A stretch of DNA of 49,025 nt. It comes from Burkholderiales bacterium. GTDB lineage: Bacteria > Pseudomonadota > Gammaproteobacteria > Burkholderiales > Burkholderiaceae_E. The DNA is taken from assembly GCA_003818495.1 (NCBI GenBank), contig RPRK01000012.1, positions 1 through 49,025 on the forward strand, in the 5' to 3' direction. The translations under genes were made by a program, and so were the position numbers. Under the pieces are notes generated by a model. The model worked only from the letters and a program-made list of their open reading frames with translations. It was not told the DNA's origin and did not search any database. The number at the start of each line of letters is the position of its first letter. Position 1 is the stretch's first letter. Below are positions 26,147-31,637 of the stretch, one piece after another.

Positions 26147-26884
26147 TCAGGTCGCGCGGGGCACGAGCATCGCCCACACCCCGCCGAGCAGCAGCACCGC
26201 GATCGCGATCGCGGCCACGCCCCGCACCAGGCCCTGGCGCCGGAACTCGTCGGCATCGAACTTCTCGGCCATCACGAGGCCCATCAGATAGCCGCCCGCC
26301 AGGCCGCCGATGTGCGCGGCGTTGTCGATGAAGCCCGCCGTGAAGCCCAGGACCAGCGACAGGGCGACGAAGGTGAGCATCGACGATCGCATCGATTTCG
26401 CAAGCTCGGCCGGCAGCTTGCCGGCCTTGGTGGACAGCGCCGCGAGCAGGCAGCCCACCACGCCGAAGATCGCCCCGGAGGCGCCGACCGACACCCCCGT
26501 CCGGGCCGCGAAGAACAGGCTCGCCATCGAGCCGGCGAGGCCCGCGACCAGGTAGATGACCGCGAGCTGGGTGTTGCCGTAGAAGCGCTCGGCGAGCCGT
26601 CCGGTGTTCCACAGCGCCCACATGTTGAAGCCGAGGTGCACGATGCCGCCGTGCAGGAACATCGCCGACAGCAGGCGCCACGGCTGCTCGAGGGTCATCG
26701 GCAGGAAGTTGCCCCCCCACATGGCGAGCTCGCGGGCGCCCGGCGACATCGGCGACAGGCCGCTCACGATGTTCAGCAGCCAGACCGCGAGGTTGAGCGC
26801 GATGAGCGTCGGCGTGACCCAGGTCCGGGGCGTGGCCTCGTGGAGCCGCCAGACGAATTCGTTGTGATCGACCGGTGCGCTCAT
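26147..26884 (-). CDS. Rhomboid family intramembrane serine protease
   Basis: 245 aa; the ATG overlaps the ruvB stop (ATGA). Six or so membrane helices. Catalytic features: [18 protein letters not shown] (His/Asn oxyanion region), [11 protein letters not shown] (Ser nucleophile, about residue 135) and [16 protein letters not shown] (catalytic His, about 190). Rhomboids cut membrane-spanning substrates within the bilayer; the substrate here is unknown. Position between ruvB and ybgC suggests co-transcription without functional link. Confidence 0.92.
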
Positions 26885-27936
26885 GCGGCACCGCCGTCGT
26901 CGCCGCCGAACAGGTCCGAGGCGGCCTGGCGGTCGGGCGCGGCGAGGCCGAAGTGCCGCCACGCGGCGGCCGAGGCGACGCGGCCGCGTGGCGTGCGCTG
27001 CAGGAAGCCCTGCTGGATCAGGTAGGGCTCGAGCACGTCCTCGATGGTGTCGCGCTCCTCGCCGATCGCAGCAGCGACGTTGTCCAGGCCCACCGGGCCG
27101 CCCGAGAACTTCTCGATGACCGCGAGCAGCAGCCGGCGGTCCATCGTGTCGAGACCGATGCGGTCGACGTCGAGCATGGTGAGCGCACGGTCGGCGACCT
27201 CGGCGGTGACCACGCCCTGCGCCTTGACCTCGGCGTAGTCGCGCACGCGCCGCAGCAGCCGGTTGGCGATCCGTGGGGTGCCGCGGGCGCGCCGCGCGAT
27301 CTCGCGGGCGCCGCCCTCGTCGGTCGGCGCCTTGAGCAGGGCCGCCGAGCGCGTGACGATCCGCGTGAGGTCGTCGACGTCGTAGAACTCGAGCCGGGCC
27401 ACGATGCCGAACCGGTCCCGCAGCGGATTGGTCAGCATGCCGGCCCGGGTGGTCGCACCGACCAGCGTGAACGGCTGCAGGTCGAGCTTGATCGAGCGCG
27501 CGGCCGGCCCCTCGCCGATCATGATGTCGATCTGGAAGTCCTCGAGGGCGGGGTACAGGATCTCCTCGACGACCGGGCTCAGCCGGTGGATCTCGTCGAT
27601 GAAGAGCACATCGTTCTTCTCGAGGTTGGTCAGCAGGGCCGCGAGGTCGCCGGGCCGCTCCAGGACCGGCCCCGAGGTCTGGCGCAGGTTCACGCCCATC
27701 TCGGCGGCGACGATGTGCGCGAGCGTGGTCTTTCCGAGTCCGGGGGGGCCGAACAGCAGCAGGTGATCGAGCGCCTCGCCGCGATTGCGGGCCGCGCTCA
27801 CGAAGATCTCGAGCTGTTCCCGGATGCGCGGCTGTCCGACGTAGTCGGCGAGCGCCTTCGGGCGCAGCGCGCGCTCGACCGCCTCTTCTGCCGGCGAGGC
27901 CGGGCCCGGCGCGATCAGGCGGTCGTGTTCGATCAT
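26881..27936 (-). CDS. ruvB: Holliday junction helicase RuvB
   Basis: 351 aa. AAA+ ATPase that drives branch migration together with RuvA and RuvC. Walker [13 protein letters not shown] (about 63-74), Walker [12 protein letters not shown], sensor 1 VGATTRAG, arginine finger region NPLRDRFGI, sensor 2 in [16 protein letters not shown], and the C-terminal winged helix ([12 protein letters not shown]). Full length. It is separated from ruvA by four redox genes; in many Proteobacteria ruvA and ruvB are adjacent. Confidence 0.97.
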
Positions 27937-27977
27937 CGCCGCATTCTATCGGACCGGCGGGCCCGACCCGCGCCGCT

Positions 27978-28877
27978 TCAGCGCTGCCCGGGCGACGCCT
28001 GCAGCGCGCCATCCGGGCCGATGGCGAGCCAGGGCAGCCCGGTGCGATCGAGGAGCGCCGGCGCGTCGGCCTCCAGCAGCATCGCGATCGTCGTGTAGCC
28101 GCCGGCCGCGACCGCGACCGGCGCGACCACCGTCACCGACCGCCAGTGGCGCACGGAGCGGCCGCTGCGCGGATCGAGCACATGGCAGTGGCGCACGCCG
28201 TCGCGCTCGAAGAAGCGCTCGTAGTCGCCGCTGGTGCAGACCGCTCCGTCGGACAGCTCGAAGGCGGCGACCGTGCCGGCGGCGTCGCGCGGGTCCTGGA
28301 TCGCGATCGACCAGGGCGCGCCGTCGGGCTGGGGGCCGATCGCGCGGATGTCGCCGCCCAGGTCGACGAAGCCATGGCGGGCACCGGCCGTGCGCAGCGC
28401 CTCGGCGGCCCGGTCGGCGGCGTACTCCTTGCCGAAGCCGCCGAAATCGAGCTCCATGCCGGGCCGGGGCAGCCGCAGGGACGCGCCGTCGCGCATGACG
28501 TCCTGCCAGCCGATCAGCGGGCGCAGCGCATCGAGCGCGGCCTCGTCCGGCACGATGCCGAGGCGAAAGTCCCAGGCCCGGCGCAGCACGCCGGAGGTGG
28601 CGTCGAAGCGCCCGCCGCTCTCGCGCCACAGTGCATCGGCATAGCCGAGGAGCGCCTGCGTCTCCGCATCGACCGTCACCGGGGCGGCACCCGCGGCGCG
28701 GTTGATCGCGGCGACCACGCTGTCCTCGCGGTAGCGCGAGTACTTGGCCTCGATGCGGCGCACCTCGTCGATCGCGGCCTGCGCCCAGGCCCGGGCCCGC
28801 GCCTCGTCGGGCGCGGCCAGTCGGACCTCGCAGCGGCTCGCCATCGCGTCGAACCCGAAACCGAACGGTCGCAGCAT
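27978..28877 (-). CDS. apbE: FAD:protein FMN transferase (ApbE family)
   Basis: 299 aa from the ATG at 28875-28877; the open frame upstream overlaps the DUF3570 gene in a shadow. ApbE transfers FMN from FAD to a Thr/Ser of target proteins. Motifs: N-terminal FDAMASRCEVRLA, IEAKYSRYREDSVVAAINRAAG, FDATSGVLRRAW, LDFGGFGKEYAADRAAE, FVDLGGDIRAIGPQ, HVLDPRSGRSVRH and GGYTTIAMLLEAD with the Mg-binding Thr region. There is no signal peptide or lipobox, so it seems to act in the cytoplasm, unlike many periplasmic ApbE proteins. Last gene of the tlpA-DUF4266-DUF3570-apbE cassette. Confidence 0.92.
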   Translation of the reverse strand: MLRPFGFGFDAMASRCEVRLAAPDEARARAWAQAAIDEVRRIEAKYSRYREDSVVAAINRAAGAAPVTVDAETQALLGYADALWRESGGRFDATSGVLRRAWDFRLGIVPDEAALDALRPLIGWQDVMRDGASLRLPRPGMELDFGGFGKEYAADRAAEALRTAGARHGFVDLGGDIRAIGPQPDGAPWSIAIQDPRDAAGTVAAFELSDGAVCTSGDYERFFERDGVRHCHVLDPRSGRSVRHWRSVTVVAPVAVAAGGYTTIAMLLEADAPALLDRTGLPWLAIGPDGALQASPGQR

Positions 28878-28894
28878 CACCGATGCTCGCCGGA

Positions 28895-30103
28895 TCAGAA
28901 CAGGTGGGTCAATCCCACCTGCAGGATCGTGGCCCTGAGCGGGGCGAGACCGGCGGTTCCGGGGCCGCCGAGCCGCCATTCGCCACGCTGCTCGTAGTAC
29001 TCGGCCTTGAAGTCGACCAGGTTCGAACGGTCGATGGCCTTGGCCACGCGGAACCCGATGGCCGCCGCGCCGAAGGCCGCCAGCCGCGCATCGGGCGAGC
29101 GCGGCGCGCCGAGGTCGGTCAGGTAGCCCTCCGGGAACGGCGCGCCGAGGGTCGGATCGTAGACCGGCGCATAGAAGAAGCTGGCCGCGCTCTGCGTGTA
29201 GTAGCGCAGGGACGGCGTGAGCGTCCAGCCGCCGGCCACCGGCTGCACCCATTCGCCGGTCAGCGTGTTCGAGCGCACGTCCCAGCTGTCCGCATAGGTG
29301 CGCCAGCCCAGGCGCATCGTCGCGCCCGGACCCTGGAAGTGATGGTTCCAGCGCAGCAGCACGGCGGTCTGCACCCGCTCCCGCGGTCGCGAGTCGATCG
29401 TCTTGTAGGGATCGGAGTAGTAGCCGCTGCCGCGGGCGTGGGTCACGTTGAGCTGCACGATGTCGACCGGGGTCAGCACCTGCGTCACGCCGAGCAGCAC
29501 GTCCGTGGTCTTTCGGCGTTCGTCGACGACGATGCGATTGACCGGATCGATGCGGTCGTCCGCGCGCCCGAGACCGAAGCTCCAGGTGCGGTTGTTGTCC
29601 GCGCTGGAGACGCTGCCGCGCAAGGACAGTGCCCGCGACACGTAGTCGTTCTCGCTCGAGTAGGCGCCGCCGACCGACAGGGTCGCGCGGTCCCAGTGAC
29701 GGGTGACGCGCAGGTCGCCGGCAGTGCGCTCGTCGCTCATCCGCGATGCGCTCGAGACCGAAGAATGCCAGCGCGGCGACGCGCCCGACACCGAGTCGTA
29801 GCTGGTGACGCCCTCGAAGGTCCAGCGACCCGCCACCGGCACGCGCAGACCGATCGAGGGCGTGTCCACGCGGATGCGCTTGAGACCGGGCTGCGAGTCC
29901 TGGTAGTGCAGCCAGCGCACGTCGAGCTGCGCGCGCTCGGGCGGCGCCTGCGCCGCGACCGGCGCGGACACGCCGGGCAGCGCCAGCGCGGCCGCCAGCA
30001 GCGCCGGCGCGAGGGGCGCGCCGCCGCGCGGGGCGGGCAGCGTCGCGCAGGCGGCGTCCGTGCCCGCTGCGTTCGATGCGTTCGATGCGTCAGAAGTGGT
30101 CAC
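28895..30103 (-). CDS. DUF3570 outer-membrane beta-barrel-like protein
   Basis: 402 aa from a GTG at 30101-30103 with TGAGG about 12 bases upstream, inside the DUF4266 gene's end. A signal sequence (about 30-52, LAPALLAAALALPGVSAPVAAQ) is preceded by a long Ser/Ala N-region. The mature part is made of alternating amphipathic strands (RATLSVGGAYSSENDYVSRALSLRGSV, ILQVGLTHLF at the C-terminus, ending in Phe), as expected of an outer-membrane barrel. Near its N-terminus DSVSGAS (103-109) and SSVSSAS (114-120) resemble the ApbE flavinylation consensus. DUF3570 proteins are recurrent neighbours of DUF4266 and ApbE; their function is unknown. Confidence 0.85.
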   Translation of the reverse strand: MTTSDASNASNAAGTDAACATLPAPRGGAPLAPALLAAALALPGVSAPVAAQAPPERAQLDVRWLHYQDSQPGLKRIRVDTPSIGLRVPVAGRWTFEGVTSYDSVSGASPRWHSSVSSASRMSDERTAGDLRVTRHWDRATLSVGGAYSSENDYVSRALSLRGSVSSADNNRTWSFGLGRADDRIDPVNRIVVDERRKTTDVLLGVTQVLTPVDIVQLNVTHARGSGYYSDPYKTIDSRPRERVQTAVLLRWNHHFQGPGATMRLGWRTYADSWDVRSNTLTGEWVQPVAGGWTLTPSLRYYTQSAASFFYAPVYDPTLGAPFPEGYLTDLGAPRSPDARLAAFGAAAIGFRVAKAIDRSNLVDFKAEYYEQRGEWRLGGPGTAGLAPLRATILQVGLTHLF

Positions 30104-30114
30104 GGTCGTCGGCC

Positions 30115-30336
30115 TCAGTTGCAGCCGCAGCCGCCGCCGCCCACGCCGGTGCCGCCCGACGAGCCTTCCTTGCTCGGGTAGACCTGCTCGCTCATCCGGC
30201 TCTCGAGCGAGCCGGTGTCGAAGCGCATCTCGGGGCGTGCGAGCTCGCCCTTCTCCCAGGCCTCGACGACGACCGGACCGCTGCATCCCGCGCCGGCCAG
30301 GCATGCCGCGAGCAGCAGCAGCGCGTGTGCCCTCAC
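30115..30336 (-). CDS. DUF4266 small lipoprotein with C-terminal Cys-Gly-Cys tail
   Basis: 73 aa from a GTG at 30334-30336 that overlaps the tlpA stop (GTGA). The N-terminal signal has two possible lipoprotein cysteines: Cys12 in LLAAC (a good lipobox) and Cys18 in AGAGC. The body has VEAWEKGELARPEMRFD, then QVYPSKEGSSGGTG and finally a Gly-rich end with Cys70-Gly-Cys72-Asn. This matches DUF4266. The paired tail cysteines are a likely substrate for the TlpA-like thioredoxin encoded just upstream, or a metal/cofactor ligand (inference). Function unknown. Confidence 0.85.
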   Translation of the reverse strand: MRAHALLLLAACLAGAGCSGPVVVEAWEKGELARPEMRFDTGSLESRMSEQVYPSKEGSSGGTGVGGGGCGCN

Positions 30337-30932
30337 GAAGCTTTCGCCATGCTGGCCCGCGCTGCGAGCGCGTCGCGCAGCGCGGCTTCGAGGGTCGGGC
30401 GATCGGCGTCGCGAAAGCCGGCGTGGACCGTGCGCACCCGGCCGTCGGCGCCGATCAGCACCGAGGTCGGCATCGCCCGGACCGCGTACCGACGGGCGCT
30501 GTCGCCGCTCGGATCGAAAGCGACGGTGAACGTCGCCCGGTGTTCGGCCAGGAACCGGCGGGCGGACTCCGCCTTCGCGTCGAGGTTGAGCGCGACCACC
30601 TGCAGGCCCTGCGACCCGTAGCGCTGCTGCATCGCCTCCATCCAGGGGAACGACTGCCGGCACGGACCGCACCACGATGCCCAGAAATCCAGCCACACGA
30701 CCCGTCCGCGAAGCTCGGAGAGCGTGCCGGTGCCGCTGTCGGTGCGCAGGGCGAGGTCGGGCGCCTGCTCGCCCGTGGGCAGGGCGTCGGCCAGGATCGG
30801 GCGCAGCGCGATGCCGGCGACCGCGATCGCGCCCAGGCGCATCAGCGTGCGGCGGCCGCGCGCCCGTGCGGAGGGCGGCAGGGCGTGTTCGGGCAGCACG
30901 GGAGGCGGCAGTCGGCGGGACATGGCGGGCAC
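30333..30932 (-). CDS. TlpA-like thioredoxin (thiol:disulfide oxidoreductase)
   Basis: 199 aa (M1 at 30932 or M4 at 30923). A long basic N-region with GRRTLMRLGAIAVAGIALRPILADA (about 26-50) resembles a Tat-type signal, so it is exported. Thioredoxin fold with active site WASWCGPCRQSFP (Cys88, Cys91) and cis-Pro loop VRAMPTSVLIGADG. TlpA/ResA proteins usually keep specific periplasmic cysteines reduced. It is the first gene of the four-gene redox cassette and overlaps DUF4266, whose CGC tail is the obvious candidate partner. Confidence 0.9.
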   Translation of the reverse strand: MPAMSRRLPPPVLPEHALPPSARARGRRTLMRLGAIAVAGIALRPILADALPTGEQAPDLALRTDSGTGTLSELRGRVVWLDFWASWCGPCRQSFPWMEAMQQRYGSQGLQVVALNLDAKAESARRFLAEHRATFTVAFDPSGDSARRYAVRAMPTSVLIGADGRVRTVHAGFRDADRPTLEAALRDALAARASMAKAS

Positions 30933-30943
30933 CGTCGGAGGAT

Positions 30944-30960
30944 CGGCCGATCATCGGCCG
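30944..30960. promoter_or_regulatory. Perfect 17-bp palindrome upstream of the redox cassette
   Basis: CGGCCGAT and ATCGGCCG flank a single central C, 11 bases upstream of the tlpA-like ATG (30932, minus) and within the 123-base gap after the ruvA stop. It could be an operator for a dimeric regulator of the cassette or a terminator hairpin for the ruvCA transcript; there is no T-run. Confidence 0.45.
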
Positions 30961-31055
30961 CACTCCCACGCGAGGCGCGCGACCCGCCGACGGGCGGTCG
31001 ACGGCGGGGGATCGGCGCGCCGGCCGCCGCCGGAGCGCCCGTCCCGCGCGACCGC

Positions 31056-31637
31056 TCAGCTGCGGGCGAGGAGCTTGAGGGCCTGCCGGATGCCGTCGGA
31101 GACGCCGGTGTCGGGCGGCACCTGCTTGGCCGCCACCGTCGCCTCGCGCTCGGAGTAACCGAGCGACAGCAGCGCGCGCAGGATGTCGGCGGCGTGGTCC
31201 GGCACCGGCGGCTGGCCCGCGACCGCGGGCAGCTCGGGCCCCAGCTTGCCCTTGAGCTCGAGCAGCAGTCTCTCCGCGGTCTTCTTGCCGATGCCGGGCA
31301 CCTTCACCAGCCGCCCGGCCTCCTGCAGCGTGACCGCCTGCGCGAGGTCCGCCACCGACATGCCCGAGAGGACCGCGAGCGCCGTGCGCGGGCCGACGCT
31401 CGAGATCTTGATGAGCGCGCGGAACGCCGTGCGTTCGCCCTCGGTGAGGAAGCCGTAGAGGAGCTGCGCGTCCTCCCGGACCACGAAGTGCGTGAGCAGC
31501 ACGACGCGCTCGCCCGCCGGCGGCAGGTCGTACAGCGTGCTCATGGGCACGTCGACCTCGTAGCCGGTGCCCTGCACGTCGATCAGCACCTGGGGCGGCG
31601 ACTTGGACAGCAGCACCCCGGAGAGGCGCCCGATCAC
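31056..31637 (-). CDS. ruvA: Holliday junction branch-migration protein RuvA
   Basis: 193 aa from a GTG at 31635-31637 that overlaps the ruvC stop (GTGA). Domain I OB-fold ([28 protein letters not shown]), domain II with two HhH motifs ([19 protein letters not shown] and [23 protein letters not shown]), and domain III UBA-like end ([24 protein letters not shown]). It binds the four-way junction and loads RuvB. Standard length. Confidence 0.97.

Follow-up and report, generated by a model that had tools for sequence, protein, structure and literature searches.

What do four genes for putative redox proteins of the cell envelope do together, and why do they stand between ruvA and ruvB in the genome of a Burkholderiales bacterium? 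The genes form one run on the minus strand of a stretch of 49,025 nucleotides (assembly GCA_003818495.1, contig RPRK01000012.1, positions 1 to 49,025), referred to here as the window. They encode a TlpA/ResA-like thioredoxin (30333..30932, with a GTG start at 30932 or an ATG start at 30923), a small DUF4266 lipoprotein (30115..30336), a DUF3570 protein, predicted to be a barrel and the substrate of the last protein (28895..30103), and an ApbE transferase (27978..28877) of the kind that moves flavin mononucleotide (FMN) from flavin adenine dinucleotide to proteins. The set is of a known kind; both its recurrence and the flavinylation of DUF3570 were already published in 2021 (PMC8238504). We consider it almost certain that the window cassette belongs to the DUF3570/DsbD flavinylation system described there. 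An even chance is given to a further reading, namely that it is part of a working DUF3570 flavinylation module in which electrons pass from thiols to flavin and on to heme across the outer membrane.

The four gene identities proposed in an earlier note on this DNA are all supported by Pfam. DUF4266 matched PF14086 (70 bits, E = 2.8e-19), DUF3570 matched PF12094 (212 bits, 1.5e-62) and ApbE matched PF02424 (252 bits, 8.8e-75). The TlpA-like protein matched Redoxin (PF08534, 1.7e-24) and AhpC-TSA (PF00578, 2.2e-21); Thioredoxin_8 and Thioredoxin were also above the Pfam cut-off, and PF13899 was not listed at E 0.01. The minus-strand operon between ruvA and ruvB that the note described agrees exactly with the coordinates: the tlpA-like and DUF4266 genes overlap by four bases (GTGA), and gaps of 11 and 17 bases separate DUF4266 from DUF3570 and DUF3570 from ApbE.

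The consulted text of PMC8238504 reports 285 flavinylation clusters with DsbD, typically containing ApbE, DUF3570, a thioredoxin and a DUF4266 protein that carries a CXC at its C-terminus, plus another 316 in which these four occur and DsbD is missing. It also reports modification of a DUF3570 protein by its ApbE at [S/T]GA[S/T] motifs, in a pair from Chlorobium luteolum. The window cassette shares with these clusters the ApbE beside DUF3570, the thioredoxin-like protein and the C-terminal CXC of DUF4266, DsbD being optional. It differs in its thioredoxin, which belongs to Redoxin/AhpC-TSA instead of PF13899, and in its flavin motifs, of which the published systems have two and the window DUF3570 has one canonical copy and a second that reads SSAS. 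The cellular place of ApbE, the barrel fold and a JDVT-CTERM cytochrome are not mentioned in the text of that paper as far as consulted. In the literature searched, no further paper naming DUF3570 or DUF4266 was found, and the consulted part of PMC11334425, on flavinylation and ApbE, makes no mention of DUF3570.

The expectation that DUF4266, DUF3570 and ApbE recur together was borne out. Among 61 genomes (the window genome, G000, and 60 relatives), DUF3570 and DUF4266 had identical distributions: 12 genomes contain both, and the other 49 contain neither. The chance of identical sets of 12 is 1/C(61,12) = 6e-13 if relatedness is ignored, so that co-occurrence exceeds chance on that basis. A scan of named genomes with one DUF3570 peptide pattern gave 192 confirmed stretches, of which the best 80 were used. 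These 80 loci are all beta- or gammaproteobacterial, mainly from Oxalobacteraceae and other Burkholderiales, with Chlorobium luteolum outside the scan; seven coincide with loci from the 61-genome set. TlpA was present in 79, DUF4266 in 78 and an ApbE adjoining DUF3570 in 70, and the complete four-gene order was found in 68. A phylum-wide sample comprised 30 loci from 27 of the 29 DUF3570-bearing genomes among 398 Pseudomonadota.

The predicted DUF3570 barrel and its flavin transferase

The structure of DUF3570 was modelled with AlphaFold2 from the window sequence and those of 64 loci (65 of the 81 related sequences at hand). The model is a 16-stranded barrel with a mean predicted local distance difference test score of 92.8 and a predicted template modelling score of 0.87. 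The Foldseek and VIA-align matches shown for this model were outer-membrane barrels: BamA (Z = 22.5; itself an integrative model), 4y25, which we take to be PgaA (20.9), PelB (20.7), BcsC (19.1) and CymA (18.9). The barrel matches with Z of 18.9-22.5 span 254-289 residues; by sequence, no solved relative of DUF3570 was found at E 0.1. The C-terminal residue is W (48) or F (33) in all 81 sequences (80 loci and the window); phylum-wide, 29 of the 30 loci end in F, W or Y. An aromatic C-terminal residue is the usual signal of outer-membrane barrels. DUF3570 is thus modelled, and predicted, to be a 16-stranded outer-membrane beta-barrel.

Loops that lead from odd to even strands of the model measure 2-39 residues and those from even to odd strands 2-5. 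Following the usual rule, the odd-to-even loops were taken as the outer ones because they are longer. Two flavinylation motifs were located by alignment. The first, S-G-A-S within D-S-V-S-G-A-S (29777..29788, minus strand), offers Ser109 as acceptor, and S-G-A-[S/T] is found at this place in all 81 aligned DUF3570 proteins. The second is degenerate in the window (S-S-A-S, 29744..29755, minus strand; possible acceptor Ser120); it is canonical in 76 of the 81 sequences and reads S-S-A-S or T-S-A-S in the other five. Ser109 and Ser120 correspond to model residues 57 and 68. Both lie in the loop between strands 3 and 4, on the long-loop side, which is the least confident part of the model. Hence both motifs are predicted to share one outward-facing loop. 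In another ApbE substrate, exchange of the motif glycine for alanine lowers flavinylation to ∼50% (PMC12052999, in the part consulted), and therefore site 2 may still be used.

Further support for a flavin-bearing barrel comes from the phylum-wide loci. [ST]GA[ST] was found in 19 of the 20 DUF3570 proteins accompanied by ApbE and in 4 of the 10 that lack it (p = 0.002), and the strict form D..[ST]GA[ST] in 18 of 20 and 4 of 10, respectively (p = 0.007). Judged from these sequences, the flavin motif follows the presence of ApbE.

Where would the flavin be attached? Absence of a signal peptide was judged from in-frame stops, nearness of the DUF3570 stop codon and hydropathy, with no predictor run. 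On this basis no signal peptide or lipobox was seen before the ApbE domain in 70 of the 70 ApbE-bearing loci (of 80). In 26 of them a stop closes the frame no more than 30 residues from the domain; in the remaining loci the frame is open further up and the domain begins a few codons after the DUF3570 stop. By eye, a signal peptide was likewise missing from all 20 ApbE-bearing loci of the phylum-wide sample (of 30). In the window ApbE the conserved F-x-A-M start of the domain occupies residues 9-12, which leaves no room for a secretion signal or lipobox. The cassette ApbE thus appears to be cytosolic. According to the consulted text of PMC12052999, known ApbEs are mostly periplasmic lipoproteins and some are cytosolic, for example the one serving soluble fumarate reductase.

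With a profile that finds other ApbEs elsewhere, the cassette ApbE was the only one found in G000 and in its relatives G005, G007 and G011. Neither FMN_bind nor DUF2271 was matched in any of 5 genomes; of 14 control genomes, 4 were matched by FMN_bind and 1 by DUF2271. Therefore the two DUF3570 barrels (see below for the second) would be the only substrates of these known classes. Because ApbE has no signal peptide, is the only ApbE and meets no other substrate of a known class, FMN is probably attached to DUF3570 in the cytosol before export. In keeping with this, a largely insoluble DUF3570 was flavinylated in E. coli, the constructs being truncated (PMC8238504, consulted text). A caveat is that G000 is an assembly of 572 contigs, 97% complete and 5.7% contaminated. 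One ApbE seems to serve several barrels, since each of the 11 tested genomes with an ApbE-less cassette (G009 was not included) holds one cassette-type ApbE, at 416-507 bits, with the next match at 247 or below.

The catalytic triad of the Vibrio cholerae ApbE includes Asp285 (PMC12052999, consulted text). The Ser and His of the triad, Ser216 and His232 in the window ApbE, are kept in 79 of the 79 cassette ApbEs that have letters there (82 rows). By alignment with solved ApbEs and by spacing, Gly259 (28101..28103, minus strand) stands at the place of Asp285, and the same exchange of Asp for Gly occurs in 79 of 79. This glycine apparently marks the cassette ApbE as a subfamily.

The thiol pair and its partner genes

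The N-terminus of the TlpA-like protein carries RGRR and a hydrophobic segment, by eye a signal or membrane anchor. Its active site is C-G-P-C (30660..30671, minus strand), and WCxPC is found in all 79 TlpA-bearing loci (of 80). The lipobox of the window DUF4266, GAGC, is non-canonical; a pattern tally found canonical ones in most relatives. At its C-terminus DUF4266 reads Cys-Gly-Cys-Asn (30118..30129, minus strand). CGC followed by one last residue was present in 92 of 92 rows above 30 bits (L033-L128, some genomes being counted twice), with N as the last residue in 88, and all 30 phylum-wide DUF4266 proteins end in GGCGCN. By eye, CXXCH is absent from the four window proteins.

In Burkholderiales the cassette is often part of a wider operon. 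The profiles for cytochrome, JDVT tail, MrtJ, DsbD and TrxB were built from the same loci that were counted with them, and representatives were checked with NCBIfam. Of the 72 loci for which 3 kb or more of downstream sequence was available, 52 have DsbD within that distance (NF001419, 572 bits in L064); TrxB lies at most 5 kb downstream in 16 of 69. DsbD and TrxB are suppliers of reductant. Their position argues against an inward flow, in which a surface cytochrome and FMN would oxidise an external donor and electrons would run inward through DUF4266 and TlpA. Such a reversal is possible in principle according to the consulted text of PMC8238504; for the present module we regard it as very unlikely.

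Upstream sequence of 4 kb or more was available for 70 loci, and 62 of them have a cytochrome domain or JDVT tail there, those of L080 and L126 being weak. Of the other eight, L100, L113, L114 and L120 have an upstream open reading frame (ORF) with CXXCH, which in L113 also contains DUF4214, and L093 has a cytochrome-like stretch downstream; no linked cytochrome was seen at L050 (the ruvAB copy), L071 and L084. The profile of the partner cytochrome matched cytochrome c6 in the PDB at 3e-9, and Pfam matches were below cut-off. Of 64 cytochrome domains, 56 carry the heme motif CX2CH and eight CX4CH. By these sequence features the partner protein is classed as a monoheme class-I cytochrome c. In the representatives scanned, the cytochrome is followed by choice-of-anchor D repeats, an immunoglobulin-like stalk, and a JDVT-CTERM tail (NF033191, 51 bits in L056). 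The tail was found upstream in 55 of 70 loci. An MrtJ-like protease is encoded upstream in 51 of 67 loci, strongly in 39 (NF033192, 89.8 bits in L096). In the 61-genome set MrtJ was above cut-off in three genomes, two of them without DUF3570, and therefore its link with the module is not strict. A JDVT-like tail was also seen in L133, a region from an MrtJ-bearing genome without DUF3570.

A single ORF contains both the JDVT tail and TlpA at 17 of the 80 loci, as it does at the genus copies L033, L039 and L041. Of the 17 ORFs, 15 also include the heme motif, and the remaining two are truncated by a contig end. The order in the fused ORFs is cytochrome, stalk, Cys-containing JDVT motif, hydrophobic helix, arginines, second hydrophobic segment and TlpA. 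NCBIfam found JDVT-CTERM above cut-off at this internal position in nine of ten fused ORFs, L033 being the exception. MrtJ would cut the fused protein at the internal JDVT site, and the fusion itself ties cytochrome and thioredoxin together. The arrangement resembles the published JDVT-CTERM/MrtJ system in that relatives combine a partner cytochrome tail with an adjoining MrtJ. That system is described as MrtJ and one target in the consulted text of PMC11980579, whereas here the target is a cytochrome c whose operon also encodes flavin and thiol proteins, and the tail can stand inside the polypeptide, with the cytochrome before it and TlpA behind. Cytochrome, ApbE and flavin are not mentioned in the main text of PMC11980579 as far as consulted.

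A cytochrome next to a thioredoxin could also point to cytochrome maturation. In that case DsbD and the ResA-like TlpA would keep the CXXCH of the cytochrome reduced, and DUF3570-FMN would be a separate matter in the same operon. ResA is a reductant for heme attachment, and it is the best NCBIfam match of the TlpA-like protein, below cut-off. The cytochrome domain or tail upstream in 62 of 70 loci and the heme motif in one frame with TlpA in 15 of 80 fit this explanation. In the CcdA/DsbD-ResA/CcmG pathway of cytochrome c maturation, too, the DsbD family and a ResA-like thioredoxin accompany cytochrome c. However, TlpA and DUF4266 stay with DUF3570 where no linked cytochrome is visible (the window, L071, L084), and the invariant C-terminal CGC of DUF4266 has no place in heme attachment as generally known. 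To our knowledge the CcdA/DsbD-ResA/CcmG pathway does not involve DUF4266, DUF3570 or ApbE. We therefore regard maturation as a rather unlikely account of the set.

How is the system arranged in the window genome? G000, G005, G007, G009 and G011 each carry another DUF3570 without an adjoining ApbE; that of G011 is cut by a contig end, and its TlpA and DUF4266 are not visible. In G000 the second locus lies on contig C248 (L033). It encodes a cytochrome-like domain, a borderline JDVT tail and TlpA in one frame (140-1369), followed by DUF4266 and DUF3570 in the same locus, with no ApbE. Contig C6 holds a DsbD relative, which we name ScsB-like; it scores 116 bits against a cut-off of 330. By gene content, the window genome splits the system over two loci.

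Several variants were seen besides. In L047 and L048 (G050, G051) DUF3570 starts a much longer ORF of 912-1002 residues with a further C-terminal part, and G051 holds two such genes in opposite directions, each with a DUF4266 gene. L181, L182, L186 and L188-L193 have TlpA-DUF4266-DUF3570 without ApbE in a different cluster, with a large upstream ORF that contains two or three heme motifs. In L181, for which the Pfam scan was made, this ORF contains HZS_alpha and PD40 domains, and the cluster also includes an SH3-domain protein, a small barrel-like protein (below the Pfam cut-off) and a TPR protein; similar ORFs in the other loci were judged by eye. Many Oxalobacteraceae loci (L055, L062, L096 and others) share a conserved block upstream on the other strand, next to the MrtJ gene. 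It encodes an extracytoplasmic function sigma factor, a subtilase and a protein that by eye is anti-sigma-like, and it is possibly co-regulated.

Inheritance at the ruvAB site

The flanking genes, which lie outside the system, are ruvA upstream (31056..31637, minus strand; TIGR00084, 192 bits) and ruvB downstream (26881..27936, minus strand; NF000868, 538 bits); both identities are certain. A Rhomboid-family gene at 26147-26884 stands directly behind ruvB and is kept in the genus loci L037, L038, L040 and L042. A crude scan of 27800-31300 found no sigma-70-type promoter or intrinsic terminator.

The earlier note pointed out that the cassette separates ruvA from ruvB, which are adjacent in most Proteobacteria. 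The two genes lie on one contig in 55 of 61 genomes, with a gap between profile matches of less than 500 bases in 42, 500-1500 bases in six and more than 1.5 kb in seven. Four of these seven hold the cassette, and the other three (G033, G037, G060) are split otherwise. Among the 12 members of the genus, own genome included, the cassette stands between ruvA and ruvB in G000, G005, G007 and G011. In G009 it lies directly before ruvB, on a contig that begins inside tlpA. The remaining seven members have a gap of 137-394 bases. With ruvA and ruvB adjacent in 7 of 12 members and more than 1.5 kb apart for other reasons in three genomes of the family or order, the separation is not a clue in itself, and a functional link between cassette and ruvAB was rejected on these gap data.

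In a DUF3570 tree of 48 rows, from which the frame-broken ruv copy of G005 was left out, the ruv copies of the window, G011, G007 and G009 form one clade (99/100). G000 stands beside G011 and G007 beside G009, the same species pairing as for the second copies. The second copies also form one group, with that of G005 apart on an open fork. Because the ruv copies form one clade with this shared pairing, the ruvAB cassette reads as one insertion followed by vertical descent in 5 of the 12 genus members. The idea that the set is a mobile functional unit is not supported. DUF3570, in distant form, occurs in 4 of 72,556 plasmid records, none of the four mobilizable, and a mobile element as the principal explanation was rejected on this plasmid search and the single-clade tree. 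No transposase or integrase was noticed beside the cassette by eye, no dedicated search having been made. The module occurs in several other chromosomal neighbourhoods in different lineages and has therefore been moved or rebuilt as a unit. Its position at ruvAB is a historical detail of one lineage.

One sister copy, L037 (G005:C152, 6.0-8.9 kb), looks degenerate: its DUF3570 is split over two frames, the family search gave no DUF4266 match, and its TlpA reads WCDLC. This broken copy would fit a decaying passenger without function at the ruvAB site. In the window lineage, the ratio of nonsynonymous to synonymous substitutions is 0.11-0.25 for all four window genes against three sister genomes, and the cassette is under purifying selection. 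The passenger explanation is weakened by these values and by the fact that the ApbE of the cassette is the only one found in the genome; we consider it extremely unlikely.

Proposed electron transfer across the outer membrane

The earlier note suggested envelope electron or thiol transfer, an idea that we retain as an interpretation. In the thiol-to-flavin-to-heme module, the cytosolic ApbE would link FMN through a phosphoester to one or perhaps two serines of DUF3570 while the precursor is still in the cytosol. The precursor would pass the Sec and Bam machinery, the export and assembly route of outer-membrane barrels, and fold as a 16-stranded barrel with the FMN loop outward. With reduced nicotinamide adenine dinucleotide phosphate (NADPH) as the driving electron source, a DsbD-family protein, here the unlinked ScsB-like protein on contig C6, would pass cytosolic thiol reductant to the anchored TlpA, which would reduce the C-terminal Cys-Gly-Cys of the DUF4266 lipoprotein. 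From DUF4266 electrons would go to the FMN-bearing barrel, the point at which a two-electron thiol carrier would meet one-electron chemistry. From FMN, electrons would pass to the monoheme class-I cytochrome c, in this putative order. In G000 the cytochrome-like domain would come from the C248 cassette, whose DUF3570 would depend on the ApbE at ruvAB. Candidates for the final acceptor outside the cell are Fe(III) or another oxidant. We infer the electron direction, the order of the relay, the surface place of the cytochrome and the function. Like the porin-cytochrome conduits MtrCAB and Cyc2, such a module would combine redox cofactors, an outer-membrane barrel and a cytochrome. In contrast to these, the barrel module has no heme motif, with covalent flavin and cysteines instead.

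A more specific form is a heme-free crossing, in which electrons from NADPH would run via TrxB, DsbD and the thioredoxin to the Gly-rich CGCN tail of DUF4266 inside the barrel, then to FMN that was fixed in the cytosol and now stands outside, and to the stalked cytochrome; cytochrome and thioredoxin could be made as one polyprotein, which the intramembrane protease MrtJ would cut at an internal JDVT-CTERM signal. It is offered as a tentative possibility, doubtful as a whole.

Several points weigh against the proposed module. Electron flow itself is inferred at every step, and the orientation of the barrel was set by the rule on strands and loops, not by experiment. The second flavin motif of the window DUF3570 is degenerate. 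Glycine replaces the catalytic Asp in ApbE, and activity of the subfamily is therefore extrapolated from the published pair of C. luteolum. The window cassette itself has no linked DsbD or cytochrome, and ruvB follows its ApbE; among the relatives, DsbD is missing from the 3 kb downstream in 20 of 72 loci, and only 16 of 69 have TrxB within 5 kb. The C248 cytochrome-like domain scores 53 bits with the profile made from these loci and has CX5CH, not CX2CH or CX4CH, and its heme binding is therefore unsure. The C248 JDVT tail is borderline at 27.7 against a cut-off of 27 (25.5 and 24.7 in other scans), and MrtJ is not convincing in G000 (23 bits, cut-off 75).

The last of these points concerns the flavin. 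DUF4266 keeps CGCN in 6 of the 10 ApbE-less phylum-wide cassettes, without a flavin motif. Flavin is therefore not at the heart of the module, and TlpA and DUF4266 may act otherwise; a thiol-barrel core exists also without flavin, which speaks against a purely flavin-centred module. The persistence of CGCN also agrees with metal handling, in which this tail would carry metal and the barrel would be an iron or copper port, the ion being reduced by thiol and flavin. VIT1 occurs in 25 published clusters (PMC8238504, consulted text). In L166, a locus from another taxonomic order, a cupredoxin-like protein (1705-2106) lies upstream of the module, next to a protein without a Pfam match. On the other side, we came across no metal transporter in the window cassette, nor among the annotated conserved neighbours in Burkholderiales, many neighbours being unannotated. 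We judge metal handling to be unlikely.

The proposed module turns a list of DUF families into a testable electron-transfer chain, and named, mostly isolated species of Duganella, Massilia, Janthinobacterium and Undibacterium are at hand for such tests. DUF3570 gains a predicted fold, a predicted membrane and a predicted outward flavin loop, and the JDVT-CTERM/MrtJ sorting system gains a redox partner set. For the ApbE family, the cassette offers a setting in which the transferase seems to work in the cytosol on a protein destined for the outer membrane. If this is true, ApbE would follow a new logic, with flavin loaded ahead of export, and the lost signal peptide would have a reason.

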